From Chthonomonadales bacterium (GTDB lineage Bacteria > Armatimonadota > Chthonomonadetes > Chthonomonadales > CAJBBX01), in NCBI GenBank assembly GCA_020849275.1, contig JADLGO010000061.1, positions 1-56,965 of the forward strand: 56,965 bases of DNA, written 5' to 3'. The position numbers and the translations under genes were made by a program. Numbering within the stretch: the stretch's first letter is position 1; every line of letters starts with the position of its first letter. Positions 26,351 to 56,819 of this stretch are shown here, piece by piece. Below the pieces are notes generated by a model, which worked only from the letters and a program-made list of their open reading frames with translations, did no database searches and was not told where the DNA came from.

Positions 26351-26356
26351 TATAAT
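26351..26356 (+). promoter_or_regulatory. TATAAT -10 box placed for a leaderless transcript
   Basis: A perfect TATAAT ends seven bases before the GTG at 26363, so transcription should begin at or next to the start codon. No good -35 element was found 16-18 bases upstream. There is no ribosome-binding site before the GTG. Confidence 0.45.
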
Positions 26357-26362
26357 GGTGTA

Positions 26363-26815
26363 GTGAACGCATCCGCGATCCGTCGATATCGCGCGCTGCA
26401 CGCTTTCGCAGCGCTCGTGTTGGCACTGATGGCCTCCTCGGCCGGCGCCTCCTGGCGCTGTCTCGATGGCCGCGCCTGCACGGTCGCCTGCCCGATCGCC
26501 CATGCCGGGGGCCGGCTTACTCTCGCGCCCGCGGCGGGCCCGGCGGCCGCCCACCCGTGCTGCCGGTCGGCCGGAACCGCGCCGGCGGGCGTTGCCGCCT
26601 CCGGCTGCGTGCTGCTGGCGACTGGCTCGCCGGATGTGGTCACCACCTCCGTTCGGGCGGATCCGCCAGCCGCGGAGGTCGCCGTCTCGCCCGCTCCCGC
26701 GCCCGCCCTGGGCGCCGCGCCGCGCCCCACGCGCATCGCCGAGGCCGCCTCCCCGCCGCCGCGCGGCGTCCTGACCGCGCATCGCTCCCCCCGCGCGCCT
26801 CCCGCTCTCCGTTAG
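26363..26815 (+). CDS. Small secreted Cys-containing protein heading the efflux locus
   Basis: A 150-residue protein with a signal peptide (about 1-29, cleavage near SAGA). The mature N-terminus reads W-R-C-L-D-G-R-A-C-T-V-A-C-P, followed by H-P-C-C and S-G-C, and then a long Ala/Pro-rich tail. I do not know a named family; the W-x-C-x-(D/N)-G-x-x-C start is the most distinctive part. The clustered Cys and His could bind metal, which would suit the efflux genes downstream. The GTG start was inferred from the TATAAT box seven bases before it; the frame upstream overlaps the previous gene and is not protein-like. Low complexity makes the C-terminal half uncertain. Confidence 0.5.
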   Translation: MNASAIRRYRALHAFAALVLALMASSAGASWRCLDGRACTVACPIAHAGGRLTLAPAAGPAAAHPCCRSAGTAPAGVAASGCVLLATGSPDVVTTSVRADPPAAEVAVSPAPAPALGAAPRPTRIAEAASPPPRGVLTAHRSPRAPPALR

Positions 26816-26966
26816 CCTGACCGGACCCAGCCATGCCGCGCGTCTTCGCGCGAGCCGCTGATCGGGCTCCGGGACGCTTCAACGCTCGCCCGCCCCTTCC
26901 CGCCGCTCGCCGTGCGAGCCGGGGCGAGGGCTGGCGCAAGCCGTTCGACACAACGGAGAACCCACC

Positions 26967-27512
26967 ATGCAACGCACGCATCGCCGAGCGCGGCTGCGGC
27001 TGCGCTTCGGCCCCGGAACCCTCCTGGCGCTCATCGCAGCCGGCTTCCTGCTGGCCTCTCAGTGGCAGGCGCGCTCCGCCCGCACGATGGCTCGCTATCT
27101 TGAAGCGGATGCCACGGGGCGGCTACGGCCGGTCGAGCGCGCCGCGCCGACCGCCAACCCGGCGCCGCCCCTCTGGAAGCCCGAGCCCGGCTTGCTCCTC
27201 GCCCAGGGAGCGCGCTTGCGCCTGACGCCCCAACAGCGCCAGGTCGCCGCGGGCATCGACCGCGAGTGGCGCCGCGAGAGCGCCGCGCTCCGCTCCCGCA
27301 TGGAACGCGCCCTGCCCGGCGTGCCCACCGACGGCGAGCGAGGCGTGACCCTGCAGGGCCTTGAGAGGGGGTTGGCGCCCTACGCAGAGCTTTCGCGACT
27401 CTACGACGCGCGGCGCGGCCTGGCCTGGGCACGCGCCGAGGCCCTGCTCACGGCGGGACAGCGCGCCCTGCTGCGACCCCGTGCGCCGGCGGGCAGGGAG
27501 GCGGCGCGATGA
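26967..27512 (+). CDS. Membrane-anchored small protein, possibly a periplasmic metal-sensor-like protein
   Basis: A 181-residue protein with a basic N-terminus and one hydrophobic helix (about residues 18-32), then a mostly helical periplasmic region rich in Arg, Ala and Leu with L-T-P-Q-Q-R-Q-V. The size and the (L-T-P-x-Q-R) motif recall CpxP/CnrX-like heavy-metal-sensor proteins, but the typical metal ligands are not evident. The ATG has a GGAGAA site. Its last bases overlap the ATG of the TolC-like gene (ATGA), so it belongs to the efflux operon. Confidence 0.6.
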   Translation: MQRTHRRARLRLRFGPGTLLALIAAGFLLASQWQARSARTMARYLEADATGRLRPVERAAPTANPAPPLWKPEPGLLLAQGARLRLTPQQRQVAAGIDREWRRESAALRSRMERALPGVPTDGERGVTLQGLERGLAPYAELSRLYDARRGLAWARAEALLTAGQRALLRPRAPAGREAAR

Positions 27513-28849
27513 GCCAATCAGCTACGCTCGCCGCCCTGCTGGCAGCCCTGCTTGCCGCGGGCCCAGCCTTCGCTCAGGCCAGGCCGGCCACGGCGCTGTC
27601 CGGGGATGCGCGGCGAATCGCCGGCCCGCTCAGCGTGCGGCAGGCGGTCGAGATCGCGCTCCGTGAGAACCCCGCGATGCTCGCGGCCCGCGCCGACGCC
27701 GCCGAGGCGGCCGCCGGCACTCGATCCGCGCGCGCCATGACCTTACCGCAGGTCTCGGCCAACGGCTACCTGACCTCCGGCGACATGAGCAGCATGGTCG
27801 ACTCCGCGCCAGACGTGACTCCGCCCAGCGCGCGAATGGTGCCGCCGGGCGGGGTCGCGATCGCCAACCTGACCCTGATGGCGCCTCTCTACACCGGCGG
27901 ACGGCTGCGCGGCATGGTGCGGGCGGCCGAGGCCCGCGAGCGCGCCGCCACGGCCGGCATCGGAAGCGAGGCCGCGACCGCCGCCCTCGAGGTGAAGCGG
28001 GCCTACTACGGAGCACTGCTCGCCGCCGCCATGGCCGACGTCGCCGGGGCCCGCGTGACGGCCGACCAGGAAGCTGTCGCCAATGCGCGCGCTCTTCTCG
28101 AGGTCGGCCGGGGCATCGAGGCGAGCGTCCGTCGCGCCGAAGCCGAGCTCTCGGATGCCGAGCGCATGCTCGCCACCGCGCGCAATGAGCGCGCCGCGGC
28201 GCTCCTCAACCTGAGCGCCGCCCTCGGCGCGAGCCCGGACTCCGAGATCACGCTCTCCGACTCGCTGGCGTTCGAGCCGCCGGCCAGCGGCCTGGAGACG
28301 CAGATCGCCGACGCGGCGCGCCTGCGGCCCGAGCTGTCCGCCGCGCGGGATCGTGTGCAGGCGGCCACCGCCGACCTCGACGCGGCGCGCGGGTCGCTGG
28401 CGCCGCAGGTCTACGCGCTCGGCATGGCGGACGCCGACACGCGATCCCGCGGGTCGTCCGAGCGTGGCTACACCCTGGGACTCGCCCTGAGCCTGCCGTT
28501 GTTCGACGCAGGGCAGCGCCGGGCCGAGGTGGACGGCGCGCGCGCCCGCGAGGGCCGGGCCCGGGCCGAACTGCGCGCCGCCGAGCTGCGCGTGGGCACG
28601 GAGGTCCGCCAGGCGTGGCTCGACGTGCAGACCGGCGCCGAGAACTATCGCACCGCGCAGGCCGCCGTCCGCGCGGCGCAGGAGGCCTACGACGTGACCG
28701 CCCTGCGCGTGCGGAACCAGAAGGCCATCCAGGTGGAGCTTCTGGACGCCATCGCCGCGCTGACGCAGGCGCGGACCAACGTGGCCCAGGCGCTCTACGA
28801 CCACGCGCTGGCCGTCGCCAGGCTCCAGCGCGCCGTGGGAAGGACCTAA
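27509..28849 (+). CDS. TolC-family outer membrane efflux protein
   Basis: A 446-residue outer membrane channel protein. The signal peptide is residues 1-22 (ends AFA). Two OEP repeats follow, starting at L-S-V-R-Q-A-V-E-I-A-L-R-E-N-P and again around residue 260. The long Ala/Glu/Arg-rich helices form the periplasmic tunnel, and the P-L-Y-T-G-G and L-P-L-F-D-A-G segments mark beta-strand turns. It would form the exit duct of the tripartite pump whose adaptor and inner-membrane subunits are encoded directly downstream (gap 3 bases, then overlap). Confidence 0.9.
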   Translation: MSQSATLAALLAALLAAGPAFAQARPATALSGDARRIAGPLSVRQAVEIALRENPAMLAARADAAEAAAGTRSARAMTLPQVSANGYLTSGDMSSMVDSAPDVTPPSARMVPPGGVAIANLTLMAPLYTGGRLRGMVRAAEARERAATAGIGSEAATAALEVKRAYYGALLAAAMADVAGARVTADQEAVANARALLEVGRGIEASVRRAEAELSDAERMLATARNERAAALLNLSAALGASPDSEITLSDSLAFEPPASGLETQIADAARLRPELSAARDRVQAATADLDAARGSLAPQVYALGMADADTRSRGSSERGYTLGLALSLPLFDAGQRRAEVDGARAREGRARAELRAAELRVGTEVRQAWLDVQTGAENYRTAQAAVRAAQEAYDVTALRVRNQKAIQVELLDAIAALTQARTNVAQALYDHALAVARLQRAVGRT

Positions 28850-28852
28850 GCG

Positions 28853-31321
28853 ATGAAGAGGGTGACGATGATCGCCGCGCTGATGGCCGCCACGCTGGCG
28901 ATGGCGCCGGGCGCCGCCAGGCTGGCCTTCGCGGCCGTGACGGGGCAGGCCGGCCCCTACCGGGTGGAGGTGCGGACGAACCCGCCGGTGATCCCGGTGG
29001 GCAAGGTCCGCATGACGATCACGCTGTCGGACACGGCCGGCAAGCCGGTTGAGGATGCCAGCGTCCGTGCGATCGTCCAGATGCCCGGGATGCAGATGGG
29101 CGAGAAGGAGACCAGGGCCGCGCCCGTGCCGGGGAGTCCGGGGGAGTACGAGACCGAGGCCGCCTTCATGATGGCGGGCGCCTACGAGGCCACCGTCACC
29201 ATTGACGGCCCGGCCGGCGCGGCCACGGCCCGAATCCCGCTGGAGACCGGGATGGACACCGCCGGCGCGGGCGGCGGGTTCCCGTACGCCTGGGTCCTGG
29301 CGGCCCTCCTCGCCGCGGCGCTCGCCGCCTTCGTGATCCACCGCATGCGGCGCACGGGCCAGCGCGTCAACTGGCGGGCTGCTCTGAGGCCGGCAACACT
29401 CGCGGAGCTCCTGCTCATCGGTGTCATGATCGCCATCGCTGTGTATGGAGTGCGCCACTGGCGACGGCCCGGCGCGATGACGCCCATCGAGGCGCAGGCC
29501 ATGGAGATGGAAACGCCGCCCCCACCCGGCACCGCGCCCGTCACGCTGGCCACCGTGACTCGCGGCCCGTTCGTGAGCACGGTGCGCTACACCGGCCAGG
29601 CCGTTGGCTACAACGAGCGCGACGTGATCGCCCGGGCGCAGGGCTGGATAGTGTGGATGCCGTTCTACGCGGGCGACCGCGTGAAGGACGGCCAGCTCCT
29701 GGCGCGGCTGGATACCAGTCAGCAGAACCCGCAGGTGGCGCGGCAGGAGGCCGCCGTCGCCATGGCCCGGCAGGGCGTCGGCGTGGCGGAGCGCGAGCAC
29801 CGCCAGGCGCTAGCGGGCGTGAGCGAGGCGCGGGCGCTCGTCGCCGCTCGGCGCGACGGGCAGGCCGGAGCGCAGGCGGACGTGGCCGCCGCGCGCGCGG
29901 ACCGCGCGGACGCCGCCGCCGAGCTCGAGGCGGCCGGAACGCGAGTCGAGGCCGCCCGGGCGGGCTTGCAGGCCGCAGAGGCAGACTGGCAGTATTGGCA
30001 ACAAGAGCTCGAGCGCGAGAAGATGCTACTCGAGCGCGGGGCCGTATCGCGCGAGGAGTACCAGCGCGAGGCCGCGCAGGCCTCGGCGTCCGAGGCGAAG
30101 CTGAAGCAGGCCCGCTCCGAGGTGGCTCAGGCGCAGGCTCAGGTGCGCTCGGCGCAGGCGCGCGTTGCGCGCGCCGAGGCGGCGATCGCTGCGGCGGGGC
30201 GCAAGGCATCGCAAGCGGCCTCGGAGATCCGCGCCTCCGAGGCGGCCGTCCGCTCGGCGGAGGCCGCCGCGAGCGCGGCCCGCCAGCGCATCGCCCAGTC
30301 GGGCGCCGCGGTCGCGCAGGCCCGCGCCGAGCTCTCCGGGGCGGCGACCGCGCGCGAGTACAGCGAGGTCCGCGCGCAGGGCGACGGGGTGGTCACAGAG
30401 CGCGTGGTCAGCCCCGGAACGCTGGTCAACCCGGGCCAGGCGATCCTCCGTGTCGCCCAGGTGCGCCCGATTCGCCTGCAGGCCAACGTGGCGGAGTCCG
30501 ACCTCTCGCGCATACGGCCCGGCGCCCGAGTCCTCGCGCGCGGCCCCGACGCCGGCAAGCGGTCCGTCGTGGCGCGCGTCACCTCGATCGCGCCGGCCGT
30601 GGACCCGATCTCCCGGACCGGCCTTGTTGAGGCACTCCACGCCAACAGCGACGGGCGGTTCGTGCCCGGTCAGTACGTCGTGATGGACATCGCCATCGGA
30701 GGCAGCGAGGACGCGCTGAGCGTGCCCACGGCCGCCATCCGGACGCGCGTCGAGACCGCCCCGGGCGCCGAGGCGGAGGGAACCACCTCCTACGTGTGGG
30801 TCGCCTCGCCGGCCGCCGACGGCGGCGAGCGGACGGTGCGCGCCGCCAGCGTGCGCGTGGGCGCGAGCGAACGCGATATGACGCGGGTGCTCTCCGGCCT
30901 GCGGGAGGGTCAGCAGGTAGTGGTGGAGGGCGGCGAGGGTCTGCACGAGGGCGACACGGTGACCGTGCCCGAAGCCGACCAGGCTCCCGAGGCCCGCCCC
31001 GCGATGCCCGGACACGAGATGCCGGCCGCGCCGGGACACGAGATGCCGGGGGCCGCGGGGGCCAACGAGGCCACCGTCGAGGTGAGCTCGCGCGGCTTCA
31101 CGCCCGATCGCCTGACGGTGCGCGCCGGCGTGCCCGCCCGCGTCACGTTCGTTCGCAAAGACGAACAGAACTGCGGGCAGGAGGTGCTGCTGCCGGAATA
31201 CGGCATCCGCAAGGCGCTGCCGCTGAACCAGCCGGTGACGATCGAGTTCACACCTCGCAAAGGCGAGCTCGAGTTCACGTGCGGCATGAAGATGCTGCGC
31301 GGCAAGGTGGTGGCGCGATGA
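28853..31321 (+). CDS. Efflux adaptor fused to an N-terminal YtkA-like and a C-terminal cupredoxin-like domain
   Basis: An 822-residue protein combining three units. Residues 1-28 are a signal sequence. Residues 33-130 form a FixH/YtkA-like beta-sandwich (V-G-x-V-R-M-T-I-T-L, M-P-G-M-Q-M) followed by two transmembrane helices (about 144-163 and 184-200). Residues about 228-690 are a HlyD/RND periplasmic adaptor with split lipoyl halves, a very long Ala/Glu/Arg coiled coil (about 290-500) and R-x-L-L-x-A type barrel segments. A linker near 715-740 repeats P-G-H-E-M-P, rich in His and Met. Residues about 742-822 resemble a cupredoxin, with N-C-G-Q-E and T-C-G-M-K-M as likely copper ligands. Adaptors are usually 350-500 residues. 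The added modules imply copper or silver capture in the periplasm; the metal is an inference. Confidence 0.8.
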   Translation: MKRVTMIAALMAATLAMAPGAARLAFAAVTGQAGPYRVEVRTNPPVIPVGKVRMTITLSDTAGKPVEDASVRAIVQMPGMQMGEKETRAAPVPGSPGEYETEAAFMMAGAYEATVTIDGPAGAATARIPLETGMDTAGAGGGFPYAWVLAALLAAALAAFVIHRMRRTGQRVNWRAALRPATLAELLLIGVMIAIAVYGVRHWRRPGAMTPIEAQAMEMETPPPPGTAPVTLATVTRGPFVSTVRYTGQAVGYNERDVIARAQGWIVWMPFYAGDRVKDGQLLARLDTSQQNPQVARQEAAVAMARQGVGVAEREHRQALAGVSEARALVAARRDGQAGAQADVAAARADRADAAAELEAAGTRVEAARAGLQAAEADWQYWQQELEREKMLLERGAVSREEYQREAAQASASEAKLKQARSEVAQAQAQVRSAQARVARAEAAIAAAGRKASQAASEIRASEAAVRSAEAAASAARQRIAQSGAAVAQARAELSGAATAREYSEVRAQGDGVVTERVVSPGTLVNPGQAILRVAQVRPIRLQANVAESDLSRIRPGARVLARGPDAGKRSVVARVTSIAPAVDPISRTGLVEALHANSDGRFVPGQYVVMDIAIGGSEDALSVPTAAIRTRVETAPGAEAEGTTSYVWVASPAADGGERTVRAASVRVGASERDMTRVLSGLREGQQVVVEGGEGLHEGDTVTVPEADQAPEARPAMPGHEMPAAPGHEMPGAAGANEATVEVSSRGFTPDRLTVRAGVPARVTFVRKDEQNCGQEVLLPEYGIRKALPLNQPVTIEFTPRKGELEFTCGMKMLRGKVVAR

Positions 31322-34300
31322 GCGCCGATCGAAGGGCCGGGACGGGCGGCTCCGCCCCGGAGCATGGCGGGCGAGGCCTGAACGCCCTGCACATGATCCA
31401 CCGCTGGAGCATCGACCACCCCTACGTGATCATCGCCTTCTACGTAGCAATGGTCGCGATGGCCTGGCTCGCCGTGACGCGTGCGATGCCGCGCCGCTTC
31501 ATGCCCTACGTTGAGAGCCCGATGCTGGGGGTCGTTACGATGATGCCCGGCCTCTCCGCGCAGGAGATGGAGATCTACGTCAGCAAGCCGATCGAGGAGC
31601 AGCTCGTCAACATCCAGGGTATGCGCTTCATCCGCTCCACCTCCCAGGACGGCTTCTCCATCGTGACGCTGGAGTTCGACTACGGGCACAACATGCGGCG
31701 CGCGCTCTTCGACGTGCAGGCGCTCATGAACGTCGTGCAGGCCAGCCTGCCGGCGACGGGAGCCAACCTGAAGCCCTCGTGGGTCGTCCCGATCGACCCG
31801 CTGAACCTGCCGGTCCTCTCACTCAGCCTGCGCGGTGACCCCGCGCGCGGCTGGGACATGGCCCGCGTGCGCGAGGTCGCCGACAACGCGGTAGTCAACC
31901 GCCTCAAGCGCGTGCCCGACGTCTACTCCGTGGTGCCCTTCGGGGGCTACCGCCGCCAGCTTCAGGTCGTCGTCGACCGCAACAAGCTGGCCGCCTACCG
32001 GCTGTCCATTCTCGACGTGCGCGACGCCATCGACCGCTACAACGTGAGCCGGCCCGCCGGCAACCTGACCTCGGGAGGTTCAGAGGCGATCGTGCGCGTT
32101 GACACCCTGGCGCTCTCCGCGCGCGACGTGCTCAACTACCCGATCGCCGGCTTCACGCCGGGCCAGGCGACGCTCGCGGCTCCCGCCCCCGCCGCGCCAG
32201 AGGCGATGGGCGCGATGGGCGGAGGCTCGCCGCCCAGCGCCGCCGCCCCCGCCGCCCCCACGGCGGCGCCGGGCGACGTCTCGCCGCGCATCGTCTACGT
32301 CCGCGACGTGGCGAAGGTGATCGACGCCTACTGGGAGCGGCGCAGCGGCTATCACTACCTCAAGCACGACCCGGGCACCGCCGGGGAGGTGATCCCGTCG
32401 GTCCAGGTGTCGATCATCCAGAACCCCGACGCCAGCTCCGCGCGGGTCGTGCCGGCCGTCATGGAGGAGCTGCGGGGGATCGAGACGAACAACCCCGGCC
32501 TGAGCTTCGAGGTGGCCTACGACAACGCGCGGTTCGTGAACGTGCTCTTCCGCAACGTGTGGGATGAGCTGCTCGTGGCGGTGCTCCTCACGGGCCTCGC
32601 CGTCCTCCTCTTCCTGGGCGAGTGGCGCGGCACCCTCATCGCCATGATAACCCTTCCCACCTCGCTGGCGATGGCCGTCCTCCTGATGCTGCCGTTCGGC
32701 ATGACCTTCAACAGCGGCACGCTGATCGGCCTGCTGCTCTCCATCGGCCGGCTCGTGGACGACTCCATCATTGACATCCACGCCGTGGAGCGGCACCTGC
32801 GCATGGGCAAGAGCGCCAGGGACGCCACGATCGACGGCATCGCGGAGGTGCGCCTGGCGGTCATCGCCACCACCGTGATGATGGTCCTGGCCCTGACGCC
32901 GTTGCTGTTCACGGGCGGCATCACGGAGATGATGTTCCGCGAGCTGGTCTGGCCGCTCATATTCGGGCTGCTGGCCTCCATGCTCGTCTCGTTCACGCTC
33001 ACCGCGTTGCTCTGCGCCAACCTCCTGCGCCCCGAGTCCGCTCGCGACGCCGACCGTCGCCGCCCCGTCCTCCGCTGGCTCTACGTGGTGCTCGACCCGT
33101 TCCAGCGCGGACTCGATCGGCTGGAGACCGGCTACGCCCACGCGATCCGGTGGATGCTCAAGCACCGGTTCGCCAACCTGGTTCGCATCTCCGCCACGGT
33201 GGTCCTGGGCTTCACGTTCTACTACTTCATCGGCTCCGAGATGATGCCACTGGCCGATGTGGGCCAGGCGAGTGGGCTCCTGGAGATGCAGCCCGGCACC
33301 TCCTACGCCGGAACGGAGCGCGCCGTTCGCCGGCTCGAGCAGATCATGCTCAAGCACCCGGAGCTTGAAAAGGCCAGCATCGAGATCGGCGCCGAGTCCA
33401 TGTTCGAGAGCTGGAGCCCCTACTACACCGGCTACCAGATGCCCCAGGTGAACGCGGCCGCCATGATGCTCACCTTCAGCGACAAGGACGAGCGGCGCCG
33501 CACGATCTGGGAGGTGATGGACGCCGTGCAGGCCGAGGCGCTGCGCACGATCCCGGGCATCCGGCGGCTCCAGATCAAGGAGATGGGCTCCGACGTGATG
33601 GCGACGGCGGCCGCGCCAATCCACGTCAACGTCTACGGCCCGGACCTGGCCACGCTCGATCGCATCGGAGGCCAGGTGCTCGCGGTTGCCCGGAGGATGC
33701 CCGACCTGTTCCAGCCCGCCCGCACCTGGGCGATGGGCCTGCCAGACTACCAGATCGACGTGGACCCGGCGCGCGCGCAGGGGCTCGGTCTCTCGCCGGA
33801 GAGCATCAGCCAGCAGGCCTACTACGCCCTGCGCGGCGGCCTGACGAGCGAGTTCTACCGCCTGCCGAACCTTCGGCAGGGCACCATCCTGGTGCGCTAC
33901 GCACAGGAGGGACGGCGCGCCGAGAGGGACCTCGAGAGCCTCTACCTGACGACGCCGGACGGGCGGCAGGTGCAGCTCAAATCGGTGGCGAGCGTGCGGC
34001 GCACGGTGGCGCCAACGGCCATCGAGCACGATGGGCTGCGACGCGTGATCGGCGTGACCGGCTACTACCGCATCGGTCACCTTCCGTCGATGGACGTCGT
34101 GATGGAGCTGGTGGCCAAGACCTATGGAGGTGACCCGAAGCTGGGCATCGAGCCCGTCAACTTCCCGCCGGGCTACGGCCTGGAGATGCGCGGCGACATG
34201 ACGCAGATGATGGACAGCTTCCGGCGCATGCTCACCGGCCTGGGCCTGGCGTTAATCTTCATGTACCTGGTGCTGGTGATGCAGTTCCGGGGCTTCGTGC

Positions 34301-34815
34301 AGCCCGCGCAGATGCTCGCCTCGCTCCCCCTGGAGCTCTCGGGCGTCTTCATCGCGCTCTGGCTCGCCCAGCAGGCGTTCTCCACCGTGAGCATCCTGGG
34401 CATCATCGTGCTGACTGGAATGGACATCACAACGGCCGTGCTGCTCATCGACATGATCGCCCGCTACCGCGACCGGGGCGTGCCGCGCGACGAGGCCGTG
34501 GCGCGCGCATGCCCGCAGCGGCTCCGCCCGATCCTGATGACCGCCGGCATCGCGCTCGTCGTGCTCCTACCGATCGCCATTGCGCCCAGGACCGGACTGG
34601 ACGCCTACCAGCCGCTCGCAACGGCGGTGGTCGGAGGGCTGATCGTTGGGACCGCGCTGAGCCTGTTCGACATCCCGATCATGCACACGTACGTCGACGA
34701 CCTCATCGGCTGGATCCACCGTACCTTCCTGGGGCGCGAGTGGCGCTGGCCGGTGACGGAGGCGCCCGAAGAGGCGGGCGAGGGGCGCCGAGACGAGGGT
34801 CCCGCCGCGCGCTGA
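31318..34815 (+). CDS. RND efflux pump inner-membrane subunit (CusA/AcrB type)
   Basis: A 1165-residue resistance-nodulation-division transporter. It has the expected twelve-helix plan: helix 1 at about residues 33-52, a large periplasmic porter domain, a helix cluster at about 415-575, a second porter domain and a last helix cluster after about 975. The proton-relay motif in helix 4 is G-R-L-V-D-D-S-I. The stretch A-L-I-F-M-Y-L-V-L-V-M-Q-F-R begins the second cluster. An Ala/Pro-rich insert of about 35 residues lies near 285-320. The ATG overlaps the adaptor stop (ATGA). With the TolC-like duct and the metal-binding adaptor it forms a complete export machine across both membranes. The substrate cannot be read from this subunit alone. 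Confidence 0.9.
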   Translation: MSADRRAGTGGSAPEHGGRGLNALHMIHRWSIDHPYVIIAFYVAMVAMAWLAVTRAMPRRFMPYVESPMLGVVTMMPGLSAQEMEIYVSKPIEEQLVNIQGMRFIRSTSQDGFSIVTLEFDYGHNMRRALFDVQALMNVVQASLPATGANLKPSWVVPIDPLNLPVLSLSLRGDPARGWDMARVREVADNAVVNRLKRVPDVYSVVPFGGYRRQLQVVVDRNKLAAYRLSILDVRDAIDRYNVSRPAGNLTSGGSEAIVRVDTLALSARDVLNYPIAGFTPGQATLAAPAPAAPEAMGAMGGGSPPSAAAPAAPTAAPGDVSPRIVYVRDVAKVIDAYWERRSGYHYLKHDPGTAGEVIPSVQVSIIQNPDASSARVVPAVMEELRGIETNNPGLSFEVAYDNARFVNVLFRNVWDELLVAVLLTGLAVLLFLGEWRGTLIAMITLPTSLAMAVLLMLPFGMTFNSGTLIGLLLSIGRLVDDSIIDIHAVERHLRMGKSARDATIDGIAEVRLAVIATTVMMVLALTPLLFTGGITEMMFRELVWPLIFGLLASMLVSFTLTALLCANLLRPESARDADRRRPVLRWLYVVLDPFQRGLDRLETGYAHAIRWMLKHRFANLVRISATVVLGFTFYYFIGSEMMPLADVGQASGLLEMQPGTSYAGTERAVRRLEQIMLKHPELEKASIEIGAESMFESWSPYYTGYQMPQVNAAAMMLTFSDKDERRRTIWEVMDAVQAEALRTIPGIRRLQIKEMGSDVMATAAAPIHVNVYGPDLATLDRIGGQVLAVARRMPDLFQPARTWAMGLPDYQIDVDPARAQGLGLSPESISQQAYYALRGGLTSEFYRLPNLRQGTILVRYAQEGRRAERDLESLYLTTPDGRQVQLKSVASVRRTVAPTAIEHDGLRRVIGVTGYYRIGHLPSMDVVMELVAKTYGGDPKLGIEPVNFPPGYGLEMRGDMTQMMDSFRRMLTGLGLALIFMYLVLVMQFRGFVQPAQMLASLPLELSGVFIALWLAQQAFSTVSILGIIVLTGMDITTAVLLIDMIARYRDRGVPRDEAVARACPQRLRPILMTAGIALVVLLPIAIAPRTGLDAYQPLATAVVGGLIVGTALSLFDIPIMHTYVDDLIGWIHRTFLGREWRWPVTEAPEEAGEGRRDEGPAAR

Positions 34816-54642: not shown

Positions 54643-56819
54643 GCTGTAATCCTCACCGGCCCCGAAGGGCCGGTGCAACAAGGCCATCGGCCGCACGAGC
54701 GTTCAGGGGCAGGCGTTTCAATCCTCACCGGCCCCGAAGGGCCGGTGCAACGGGCGCATTGCCGATGAGGTCGGGCTCAGTCACGCGGTTTCAATCCTCA
54801 CCGGCCCCGAAGGGCCGGTGCAACCCTCCGGCACGTCCTGCGCGACCTACGGCGCGGGCGGGGCGTTTCAATCCTCACCGGCCCCGAAGGGCCGGTGCAA
54901 CTCGGGCATTCCCGCGCCGCCTGCTACGGAGCACGCAAGTTTCAATCCTCACCGGCCCCGAAGGGCCGGTGCAACCATGCCCCGCCAAGGAGAGGAGAGA
55001 GATGAGAGCAGTTTCAATCCTCACCGGCCCCGAAGGGCCGGTGCAACTGGGGGGGGAGGAGCCCGTACTCGGCGAGCCCCGAGCGTTTCAATCCTCACCG
55101 GCCCCGAAGGGCCGGTGCAACATGTCGGTGCCGACGCGCTCGGCGCGCGCCGGGTGGTTTCAATGCTCACCGGCCCCGAAGGGCCGGTGCAACGACTGAA
55201 TCCACTGGCAGAGGCCATCCAGACACACGTTTCAATCCTCACCGGCCCCGAAGGGCCGGTGCAACCCTGTCGCGGCAGTACGCGCAGGTCCGGTTCCTGC
55301 GTTTCAATCCTCACCGGCCCCGAAGGGCCGGTGCACCCTTAAGGCGACGCTGCGCGCCCTGTTGGGCGCGGGCACGTTTCAATCCTCACCGGCCCCGAAG
55401 GGCCGGTGCAACGCGCCGGAACGTCGGGCCACTTGTCGCCGGAACCGACCGTTTCAATCCTCACCGGCCCCGAAGGGCCGGTGCAACCAACCTGCTGGGG
55501 GACTACTCGTTCGAGCTCGGGACGTTTCAATCCTCACCGGCCCCGAAGGGCCGGTGCAACCCCCTCCCCCCCTGTTACAGAATCCCCCCATGGTGCGTTT
55601 CAATCCTCACCGGCCCCGAAGGGCCGGTGCAACCTGACCGAGCTCCGCCCCGACGACCTGCTGGAGCAGGGTTTCAATCCTCACCGGCCCCGAAGGGCCG
55701 GTGCAACGGCGAGAACAGCCGGTGGAAGCTAGCGAACTTCGTGTTTCAATCCTCACCGGCCCCGAAGGGCCGGTGCAACACGCGGTTGAGGCGGCCATCA
55801 CTGCGCGGGTAAGCGGTTTCAATCCTCACCGGCCCCGAAGGGCCGGTGCAACTGCTCGACTCGGTCGGCAGCGAGATGGTGTGGGGAAGTTTCAATCCTC
55901 ACCGGCCCCGAAGGGCCGGTGCAACGCGATCGGGTCGATCGTGGTTGGAGAGGATTGAGGTGTTTCAATCCTCACCGGCCCCGAAGGGCCGGTGCACCCG
56001 GGAGCATGTGGGCGAGGTCCTGCCCGTCACGTCGCGGTTTCAATCCTCACCGGCCCCGAAGGGCCGGTGCACCTACCGTCCGCGCGACGTCGACAACGCG
56101 CGCGCCGCGGTGTTTCAATCCTCACCGGCCCCGAAGGGCCGGTGCAACATCCCGTCCTCGGTCCAGGCAGAGTTGCTGTAGGCGAGGTTTCAATCCTCAC
56201 CGGCCCCGAAGGGCCGGTGCAACGACCCGTTGCCGGCTCGCTAGGAGCCACCGCCTGCCCCATGTTTCAATCCTCACCGGCCCCGAAGGGCCGGTGCAAC
56301 GTGCCGTGCCCGGCGCTGCTGGCGTGGCGCGAGATTCTGTTTCAATCCTCACCGGCCCCGAAGGGCCGGTGCAACCGCCCGCAGGTTGCCCAAAGGATCG
56401 GATACCGCGCTCGTTTCAATCCTCACCGGCCCCGAAGGGCCGGTGCAACACGTGGGCGGGAGCGTCAGGCCGAACGGGTACAGGCGTTTCAATCCTCACC
56501 GGCCCCGAAGGGCCGGTGCAACCACCCTCTCACCTTTCGCGCGCGTAGAGATGGCCGCCGTTTCAATCCTCACCGGCCCCGAAGGGCCGGTGCAACTCAC
56601 GCTGCGATTGCCGGCACGCCACGGCGATGCCCAGTTTCAATCCTCACCGGCCCCGAAGGGCCGGTGCAACGGCAGCGGGCCAGCGCCCACTCCCGGACCT
56701 GCAGGGGTTTCAATCCTCACCGGCCCCGAAGGGCCGGTGCAACGGGCACGTTCGAACTCGACCGGGTTCCGGGGTTCAACTGGTTTCAATCCTCACCGGC
56801 CCCGAAGGGCCGGTGCAAC
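54643..56819 (-). CRISPR. CRISPR array, 30 repeats of 37 bp and 29 spacers of 35-40 bp
   Basis: Repeats start at 54643, 54715, 54788 and so on to 56783. On the plus strand each begins GTTTCAATCCTCACC and ends GGGCCGGTGCAAC. The arms CACCGGCCC and GGGCCGGTG form a 9-bp stem around CGAA; on the minus strand this loop is TTCG closed by C-G, the stable UUCG tetraloop. The minus-strand repeat ends in ATTGAAAC, the common 5' handle of type I and III crRNAs. The repeat at 54643 is degenerate in the bases that form that handle, as expected at the leader-distal end. Both facts point to minus-strand transcription with the leader beyond 56819. Other variants: repeat 8 (55157) has a G for C, and repeats 10, 19 and 20 have C for A one base before their plus-strand end. 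No cas gene is in the window, so the type is undetermined. Confidence 0.97.

Follow-up and report, generated by a model that had tools for sequence, protein, structure and literature searches.

How RND metal pumps obtain their substrate, and what share a chaperone has in the pump, is a question studied mainly on CusCFBA. The window analysed here, a stretch of 56,965 nucleotides from a Chthonomonadales bacterium (contig JADLGO010000061.1), encodes an RND adaptor with additional domains on both sides of its core, and so raises the question of whether a pump could capture copper on its own adaptor. The operon has the following layout, all on the forward strand and in window positions, with the basis of each assignment in brackets:

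26363-26815, forward: leader ORF, a small exported Cys-rich protein with the end RAPPALR-stop (recurrent layout, enrichment)
26792-26803, forward: RAPP codons, three residues ahead of the stop
26816-26966, forward: intergenic stretch with the GGAG of the next gene, for which folding predicts pairing with the final leader codons
26967-27512, forward: membrane-anchored periplasmic helical-hairpin protein, LTXXQ/CnrX/Spy-like, 181 residues (AlphaFold2)
27509-28849, forward: TolC-like outer-membrane channel, OEP (ATGA overlap with the preceding gene)
28853-31321, forward: triple-domain periplasmic adaptor, 822 residues (single frame, Pfam, AlphaFold2, structure comparison)
31318-34815, forward: RND permease of a separate subfamily (ACR_tran; ATGA overlap with the adaptor gene)

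Architecture of the adaptor

The original prediction of a single 822-residue YtkA-HlyD-cupredoxin adaptor was borne out by Pfam, by AlphaFold2 and by recurrence of the arrangement in 27 species. Behind a signal peptide, Pfam places YtkA at residues 32-115 (E 4e-14, 53.4 bits against a cut-off of 25.9), HlyD_D23 at 441-609 (E 2e-21), together with HlyD_3, and Cupredoxin_1 at 734-821 (E 5e-16). All of these matches exceed their gathering scores, including those from the proposed domain searches on the two termini. An assembly artefact can be ruled out because 27 Armatimonadota species share all three parts in one frame. The AlphaFold2 model, calculated with a 46-row alignment as input, has a mean pLDDT of 86.6 and a low pTM of 0.44, so that it does not give the mutual arrangement of the domains. 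It contains beta domains at 30-131 and 738-821, two very long hairpin helices at 291-394 and 400-502, and a disordered linker at 713-736. When compared with solved structures using VIA-align, residues 225-706 match MacA, TMexC and AcrA with Z about 19. The parts of the adaptor are:

28940-29245, forward: YtkA/CrdA-like domain, residues 30-131 (Pfam YtkA; CrdA 9ll4, Z 13.2)
29081-29101, forward: MPGMQMG motif, residues 77-83 (motif comparison among adaptors)
29285-29458, forward: two transmembrane (TM) helices, residues 145-168 and 180-202 (AlphaFold2 secondary structure)
29471-29509, forward: post-TM Met motif GAMTPIEAQAMEM, residues 207-219, with M209, M217 and M219 (conservation)
29531-30970, forward: HlyD core, residues 227-706 (AlphaFold2, structure comparison)
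29723-30034 and 30050-30358, forward: HlyD hairpin arms, 104 and 103 residues (AlphaFold2)
30989-31060, forward: flexible linker with two PGHEMP repeats, residues 713-736 (AlphaFold2)
31061-31318, forward: CupA-type cupredoxin, putatively binding Cu(I) (phmmer, structure comparison, ligand conservation)
31172-31174, 31280-31282, 31286-31288 and 31292-31294, forward: codons of the cupredoxin ligands C774, C810, M812 and M814 (alignment to CupA)

The pair of TM helices would presumably place the YtkA domain and the HlyD core both in the periplasm. Hairpin length varies among adaptors via long coiled-coil insertions, and that of L045 (8791-11814) is >100 residues longer.

Putative copper sites on the adaptor

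The cupredoxin fold expected at the rear is present in the predicted structure: residues 734-822 superimpose on CupA with bound Cu(I) (4f2e) with Z 15.4 and 1.4 Å over 88 residues, and with the same Z of 15.4 on 4f2f, the metal domain of pneumococcal CopA (VIA-align). By sequence search alone, phmmer relates the domain to CupA with E 6e-18. The Cu(I) sites of CupA are C74/C111 and C74/M113/M115 (PMC5646241), and C774, C810, M812 and M814 of the adaptor align with these ligand positions. All 30 adaptor fusions have the pattern, C..CxMxM, and aligned standalone cupredoxin relatives keep the same Cys/Met ligands. The rear domain is therefore of the CupA type by its fold and by its two Cys and two Met ligands, and is a putative Cu(I)-binding domain.

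The joining P-G-H-E-M-P repeats of the original prediction do exist, in two copies, though in the window protein only among the 30 cupredoxin-fused adaptors. The linker has a pLDDT under 50, and across these adaptors its length ranges from 13 to 62 with variable composition and no conservation of His or Met. We rejected the repeats as a conserved metal site; since the linker is unconserved and modelled as disordered, a metal role for it is unlikely.

At the front of the adaptor, residues 28-132 match silver-bound CrdA of Helicobacter pylori (9ll4) with Z 13.2 and 2.1 Å over 100 residues (VIA-align). The Met-rich Cu(I) site of CrdA reads MMxEMPGMxxMxEM (PMC9182242); MPGMQMG of the window resembles it in shorter form, and we counted it as having the Met-rich motif of CrdA. 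MPxMxMG occurs in 36 of the 39 YtkA-bearing adaptors. YtkA-domain proteins of Bacillus subtilis have a role in copper trafficking and help CuA assembly. Just after TM2, M209, M217 and M219 of GAMTPIEAQAMEM are each at least 90% conserved among 46 adaptors. The sequence of Escherichia coli CusB has an M-x(14)-M-x-M stretch close to its N terminus, and by this analogy the post-TM motif may be the same kind of site as the N-terminal Met site of CusB.

Exchange of the rear module among relatives

Adaptor cores were found at E <= 1e-60 in 99 of 291 Armatimonadota genomes. The full triple fusion occurs in 27 Armatimonadota species and three further fusions are cut by contig ends; these 27 + 3 span six family groups, mostly the group including Fimbriimonadaceae. 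Other Armatimonadota adaptors have one to four HMBD modules, a Met-rich tail or nothing in the rear slot, and some of those without a cupredoxin also lack the YtkA part. The same position is filled by a cupredoxin, HMBD or Met-rich tail in Armatimonadota and by YtkA in cyanobacteria. On a tree of the adaptor core, in which the deepest forks are weak, the four rear-slot states need 13 changes as opposed to 28 in shuffles: the modules are clustered and inherited over stretches, yet have changed repeatedly. This amounts to a natural swap experiment, in which one slot of a single adaptor chassis takes four or more kinds of metal module and 27 species have two chaperones fused together, and suggests that copper-capture parts are swappable on efflux pumps like plug-ins. 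Because one chassis takes swapped modules, a model of the adaptor as a metal funnel becomes testable by domain swaps.

Separate CupA-type cupredoxin fusions, some with an N-terminal HMBD, are found on CusB-type adaptors of Rhodothermota and Bacteroidota, and Acidobacteriota adaptors likewise carry cupredoxin fusions (loci L064, L066, L067, L068, L069, L071 and L093).

Copper genes around the relatives

Inside the window, the genes flanking the operon include no copper genes; the Cu ATPase of the window genome has an N-terminal cupredoxin of the same type as the adaptor. In six of the 27 cupredoxin-fusion loci with flanks, a Cu P-type ATPase lies no more than about 10 kb away, compared with a chance expectation of about 0.25 loci from about 1.8 hits per genome. 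One locus, L045 in genome G048, is a copper island in which a CupA-like protein, a CopA-type ATPase, a Cys-rich leader and two cupredoxins accompany the triple adaptor, permease, LTXXQ protein, TolC and a MerR-type regulator. A standalone cupredoxin is encoded in 10 of the 27 cupredoxin-fusion loci, and SilB already fuses CusF, so that the proposed replacement of the separate metallochaperone holds only in part.

The nearest permease relatives outside Armatimonadota reside on cyanobacterial plasmids. There, 6 of 7 loci encode FixH/YtkA as a separate protein close to the pump (four annotated as FixH, two by profile), and in 5 of the 7 the adaptor has another YtkA domain at its C terminus. That a domain is fused to its partner in some lineages and stands alone in others is a classic sign of shared function. 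Around these plasmid pumps are multicopper oxidase and metal P-type ATPase genes, CopZ, a cupredoxin gene, RppAB two-component genes and regulators that respond to heavy metals; some of the relatives also have arsenic and mercury genes nearby. Two candidates for Csp-like, Cys-rich four-helix copper-storage proteins, named from sequence, also lie near pump relatives (L048, 3627-3965; L170, 4976-5335).

A permease unlike CusA

Outer-membrane channel, adaptor and permease share one operon, as in CusA/SilA-type heavy-metal RND (HME) pumps. The permease itself is 42-47% identical to its cyanobacterial plasmid relatives and <30% to all else outside the phylum. Identity to MdtB, CusA, AcrB and Synechocystis CopA is <28%, and orthology to the last of these was rejected at 24%. 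The permease lies under every NCBIfam cut-off, scores higher on multidrug models than on CusA/CzcA, and reaches 298.8 bits against the CusA/CzcA model TIGR00914, below its cut-off of 701.

We compared the permease with the CusA Met triad (M573/M623/M672) and proton relay (D405/E939/K984). The columns aligned to the triad hold L654, L718 and V760, and those aligned to E939 and K984 hold T1038 and I1072; only D405 has its counterpart, D481. Three methionines, M657, M717 and M761, lie within 1-3 columns of the triad positions, and as a stand-in for the triad the shifted set fails, M657/M717 not being kept in cyanobacteria. Methionine is nonetheless among the most conserved residues of the periplasmic parts (16 of 39 at >=95%, level with Gly), and about a dozen are invariant in the Armatimonadota and cyanobacterial permeases and mostly missing in CusA, MdtB and AcrB. 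The invariant residues include M756, M761, M961, M964 and M965. This Met set, unlike that of CusA, offers a handle for testing Cu(I) passage. TM4 reads VDDSIIDIH and the TM10 Lys/Glu is replaced by Thr, so that the proton relay looks unusual, unlike those of AcrB and CusA. Unusual residues of the permease are D486, H488, D1036 and T1038; the cyanobacterial relatives do not share D486 and H488.

As the permease is not CusA-like by sequence, the system is not simply a CusCFBA variant, and copper, as opposed to silver or something else, is only its presumed export substrate. Cu(I) transport by the permease is the weakest link in reading the operon as a copper pump.

A candidate copper-sensing leader peptide

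The first ORF of the operon, which the original prediction did not include and for which we chose a GTG start although other starts are possible, has a hydrophobic N terminus, from which export was judged by eye, and Cys pairs. It sits about 0.7 kb upstream of the TolC gene and 0.15 kb upstream of the LTXXQ-like gene. Among the 60 loci whose upstream sequence is long enough, 44 have a Cys-bearing ORF ending in R[AS]PP upstream on the same strand; in most of these 2-3 residues follow the motif, and SPP or RPP often precedes it by about a dozen residues. Within 2.6 kb upstream and on the same strand, 44 of 816 ORFs are Cys-rich and of this RAPP type; for the rest of these loci the figure is 7 of 9039 (Fisher p about 6e-41, from related loci that are not independent).

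RAPP is the arrest motif by which CruR senses copper in Bordetella (PMC9426467); CutF in Rhodobacter works similarly, and CutF-like ORFs have been reported ahead of OEP/RND/HlyD genes (PMC9973294). The window ORF shares their layout, being an exported first gene of the operon with a Cys motif, CC instead of CXXC, and a C-terminal RAPP. Membership of DUF2946 was rejected: Pfam gives no match in the window leader ORF or in nine relatives, and the best match in the window genome is elsewhere and below the cut-off. We regard the ORF as a candidate copper-sensing translation-arrest peptide, similar to CruR and CutF and of a family without a Pfam model, and by the same analogy the pump operon is probably controlled by a copper-sensing leader gene. 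A RAPP leader of this kind would extend copper-type translation-arrest leaders to Armatimonadota and tie them to an RND pump.

The intergenic stretch has a fold z of -1.89. Between the leader tail and the Shine-Dalgarno sequence, 6.9 pairs are expected versus 1.6 with shuffled tails, of which 0 of 40 came as high, and a ribosome stalled at RAPP would undo this predicted pairing with GGAG. Such pairing is not a general feature, at least 3 expected pairs being found in 12 of 28 loci only; the mean is 2.9 against 2.0 with shuffled tails. Our scan near the leader found no sigma-70 promoter and no intrinsic terminator. Six bases ahead of the GTG (26363) stands a TATAAT, at 26351-26356, for which the scan gave no -35 match; the leader ORF could therefore be translated from a leaderless mRNA.

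Proposed mechanism and alternative explanations

We consider it quite probable that the operon encodes an efflux pump for copper, probably Cu(I), that bears chaperones on its adaptor, with metal binding and transport deduced from the features above. In the mechanism we propose, periplasmic copper would be caught both by the membrane-proximal YtkA domain and by the flexibly tethered cupredoxin, which would each pass it to the post-TM Met motif, the presumed counterpart of the N-terminal Met site of CusB, and from there to the permease, and the pump would eject it through TolC. When the nascent Cys-rich leader peptide senses copper, the ribosome would stall at RAPP, freeing the ribosome-binding site of the next gene and turning the operon on by the logic of CutF. 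Capture of copper by the adaptor is well supported as a prediction: of the copper or silver capture that had been proposed, the kinship with CrdA and CupA, the retained Cu(I) ligands and the copper genes around the relatives are in place, and binding itself is predicted from sequence and models.

It is unlikely that the pump is mainly an exporter of another soft metal (silver, or Hg/Au) or of a wide range of metals, and looks like a copper pump through shared thiol and thioether chemistry. Cu(I) and Ag(I) have common ligands and CrdA was crystallised with silver, HMBD modules are found in varied metal pumps, and the arsenic and mercury genes near some cyanobacterial relatives point the same way, but the neighbours of the relatives are mostly copper genes and the RAPP/Cys leader type is linked to copper in both studied cases. 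Somewhat less probable still is that the copper domains supply envelope enzymes or buffer copper, with a secondary or different pump substrate such as drugs or lipids. The help given to CuA assembly by B. subtilis YtkA-domain proteins would fit, as would a permease nearer by profile score to multidrug pumps than to CusA; however, the domains form one protein with the component that feeds the permease and occupy a slot where relatives carry HMBD or Met-rich metal modules, and the permease retains its invariant Met set. That the rear domain is an ordinary blue-copper (type 1) electron-transfer cupredoxin is highly improbable: it has a cupredoxin fold, but we rejected a type 1 centre on the ligands, which include no His and consist of Cys and Cys-x-Met-x-Met in 30 of 30, and its closest structures are CupA and the CopA metal-binding domain.

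Beyond the copper pump itself, we give roughly even chances to a wider modular design. This would be an uncharacterised RND subfamily of Armatimonadota and cyanobacteria in which CrdA-type, CupA-type, HMBD and Met-tail chaperones are swapped, fused or split on an adaptor chassis, with a permease Met path unlike that of CusA and, in Armatimonadota, a copper-sensing RAPP arrest peptide at the head.

Comparison with known systems

SilB of Cupriavidus metallidurans is a precedent for a metal pump adaptor whose HlyD core is followed by a chaperone module, there a C-terminal CusF-like domain (Bersch et al. 2011, reviewed in PMC4446572). SilB differs in the OB-like CusF fold and in serving an HME pump, whereas the window adaptor has a CupA-type rear, a CrdA-like front and a non-HME-like permease. 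CusCFBA of E. coli is likewise a tripartite pump with a periplasmic chaperone step and a Met-rich N-terminal adaptor site; there, however, CusF is separate, and the Met triad and proton relay of CusA are missing at the aligned columns of the window permease. CupA and the CopA metal-binding domain of Streptococcus pneumoniae share fold and Cu(I) ligands with the rear domain, and CupA is membrane-tethered, but it serves a P-type ATPase and the window cupredoxin is part of an RND adaptor. CrdA, from the H. pylori CrdAB-CzcBA system, has the YtkA-type domain, the Met-rich motif and the tie to an RND metal pump, yet is a separate secreted protein, whereas the window domain is adaptor-fused and membrane-anchored.

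The leader ORF resembles CruR (DUF2946, Bordetella) and CutF (Rhodobacter) in standing first in its operon, in being small, exported and Cys-bearing, and in its C-terminal proline motif. It differs in having no DUF2946 match and in the placing of its cysteines: CC and further Cys lie some 65-90 residues ahead of RAPP, instead of CXXC about 46 residues ahead. CopBAC of Synechocystis is an RND copper resistance system on a cyanobacterial plasmid, but its permease is 24% identical to that of the window; the closer cyanobacterial relatives form another subfamily, of which our searches found no characterised member. A literature search that covered few subscription journals found no account of a cupredoxin fused to an RND adaptor or of an Armatimonadetes copper system. 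What is new is the fusion at both ends of one adaptor, the exchange of modules in its rear slot, an RND subfamily of its own and a leader ORF of the copper type; the fused CusF domain of SilB was known already.

Other features of the operon and window

The best structural match of the 181-residue helical-hairpin protein is CnrX (Z 8.7, within the noise range for helical models), followed by CpxP, Spy and ZraP in a range of Z 7-8.7. Pfam LTXXQ matches 14 of its 24 relatives and not the window protein itself. A metal-sensing or protective role is plausible. In relatives of the Fimbriimonadaceae type (L056, L140, L163, L164, L166 and L170), the LTXXQ-like protein has CGxxxCxCH before the membrane helix, in the presumed cytoplasmic N terminus; the motif is absent from the window protein. 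Farther along the window, a CRISPR array at 54686-56819 holds 29 copies of the repeat GTTTCAATCCTCACCGGCCCCGAAGGGCCGGTGCAAC with 72-77 nt spacing.
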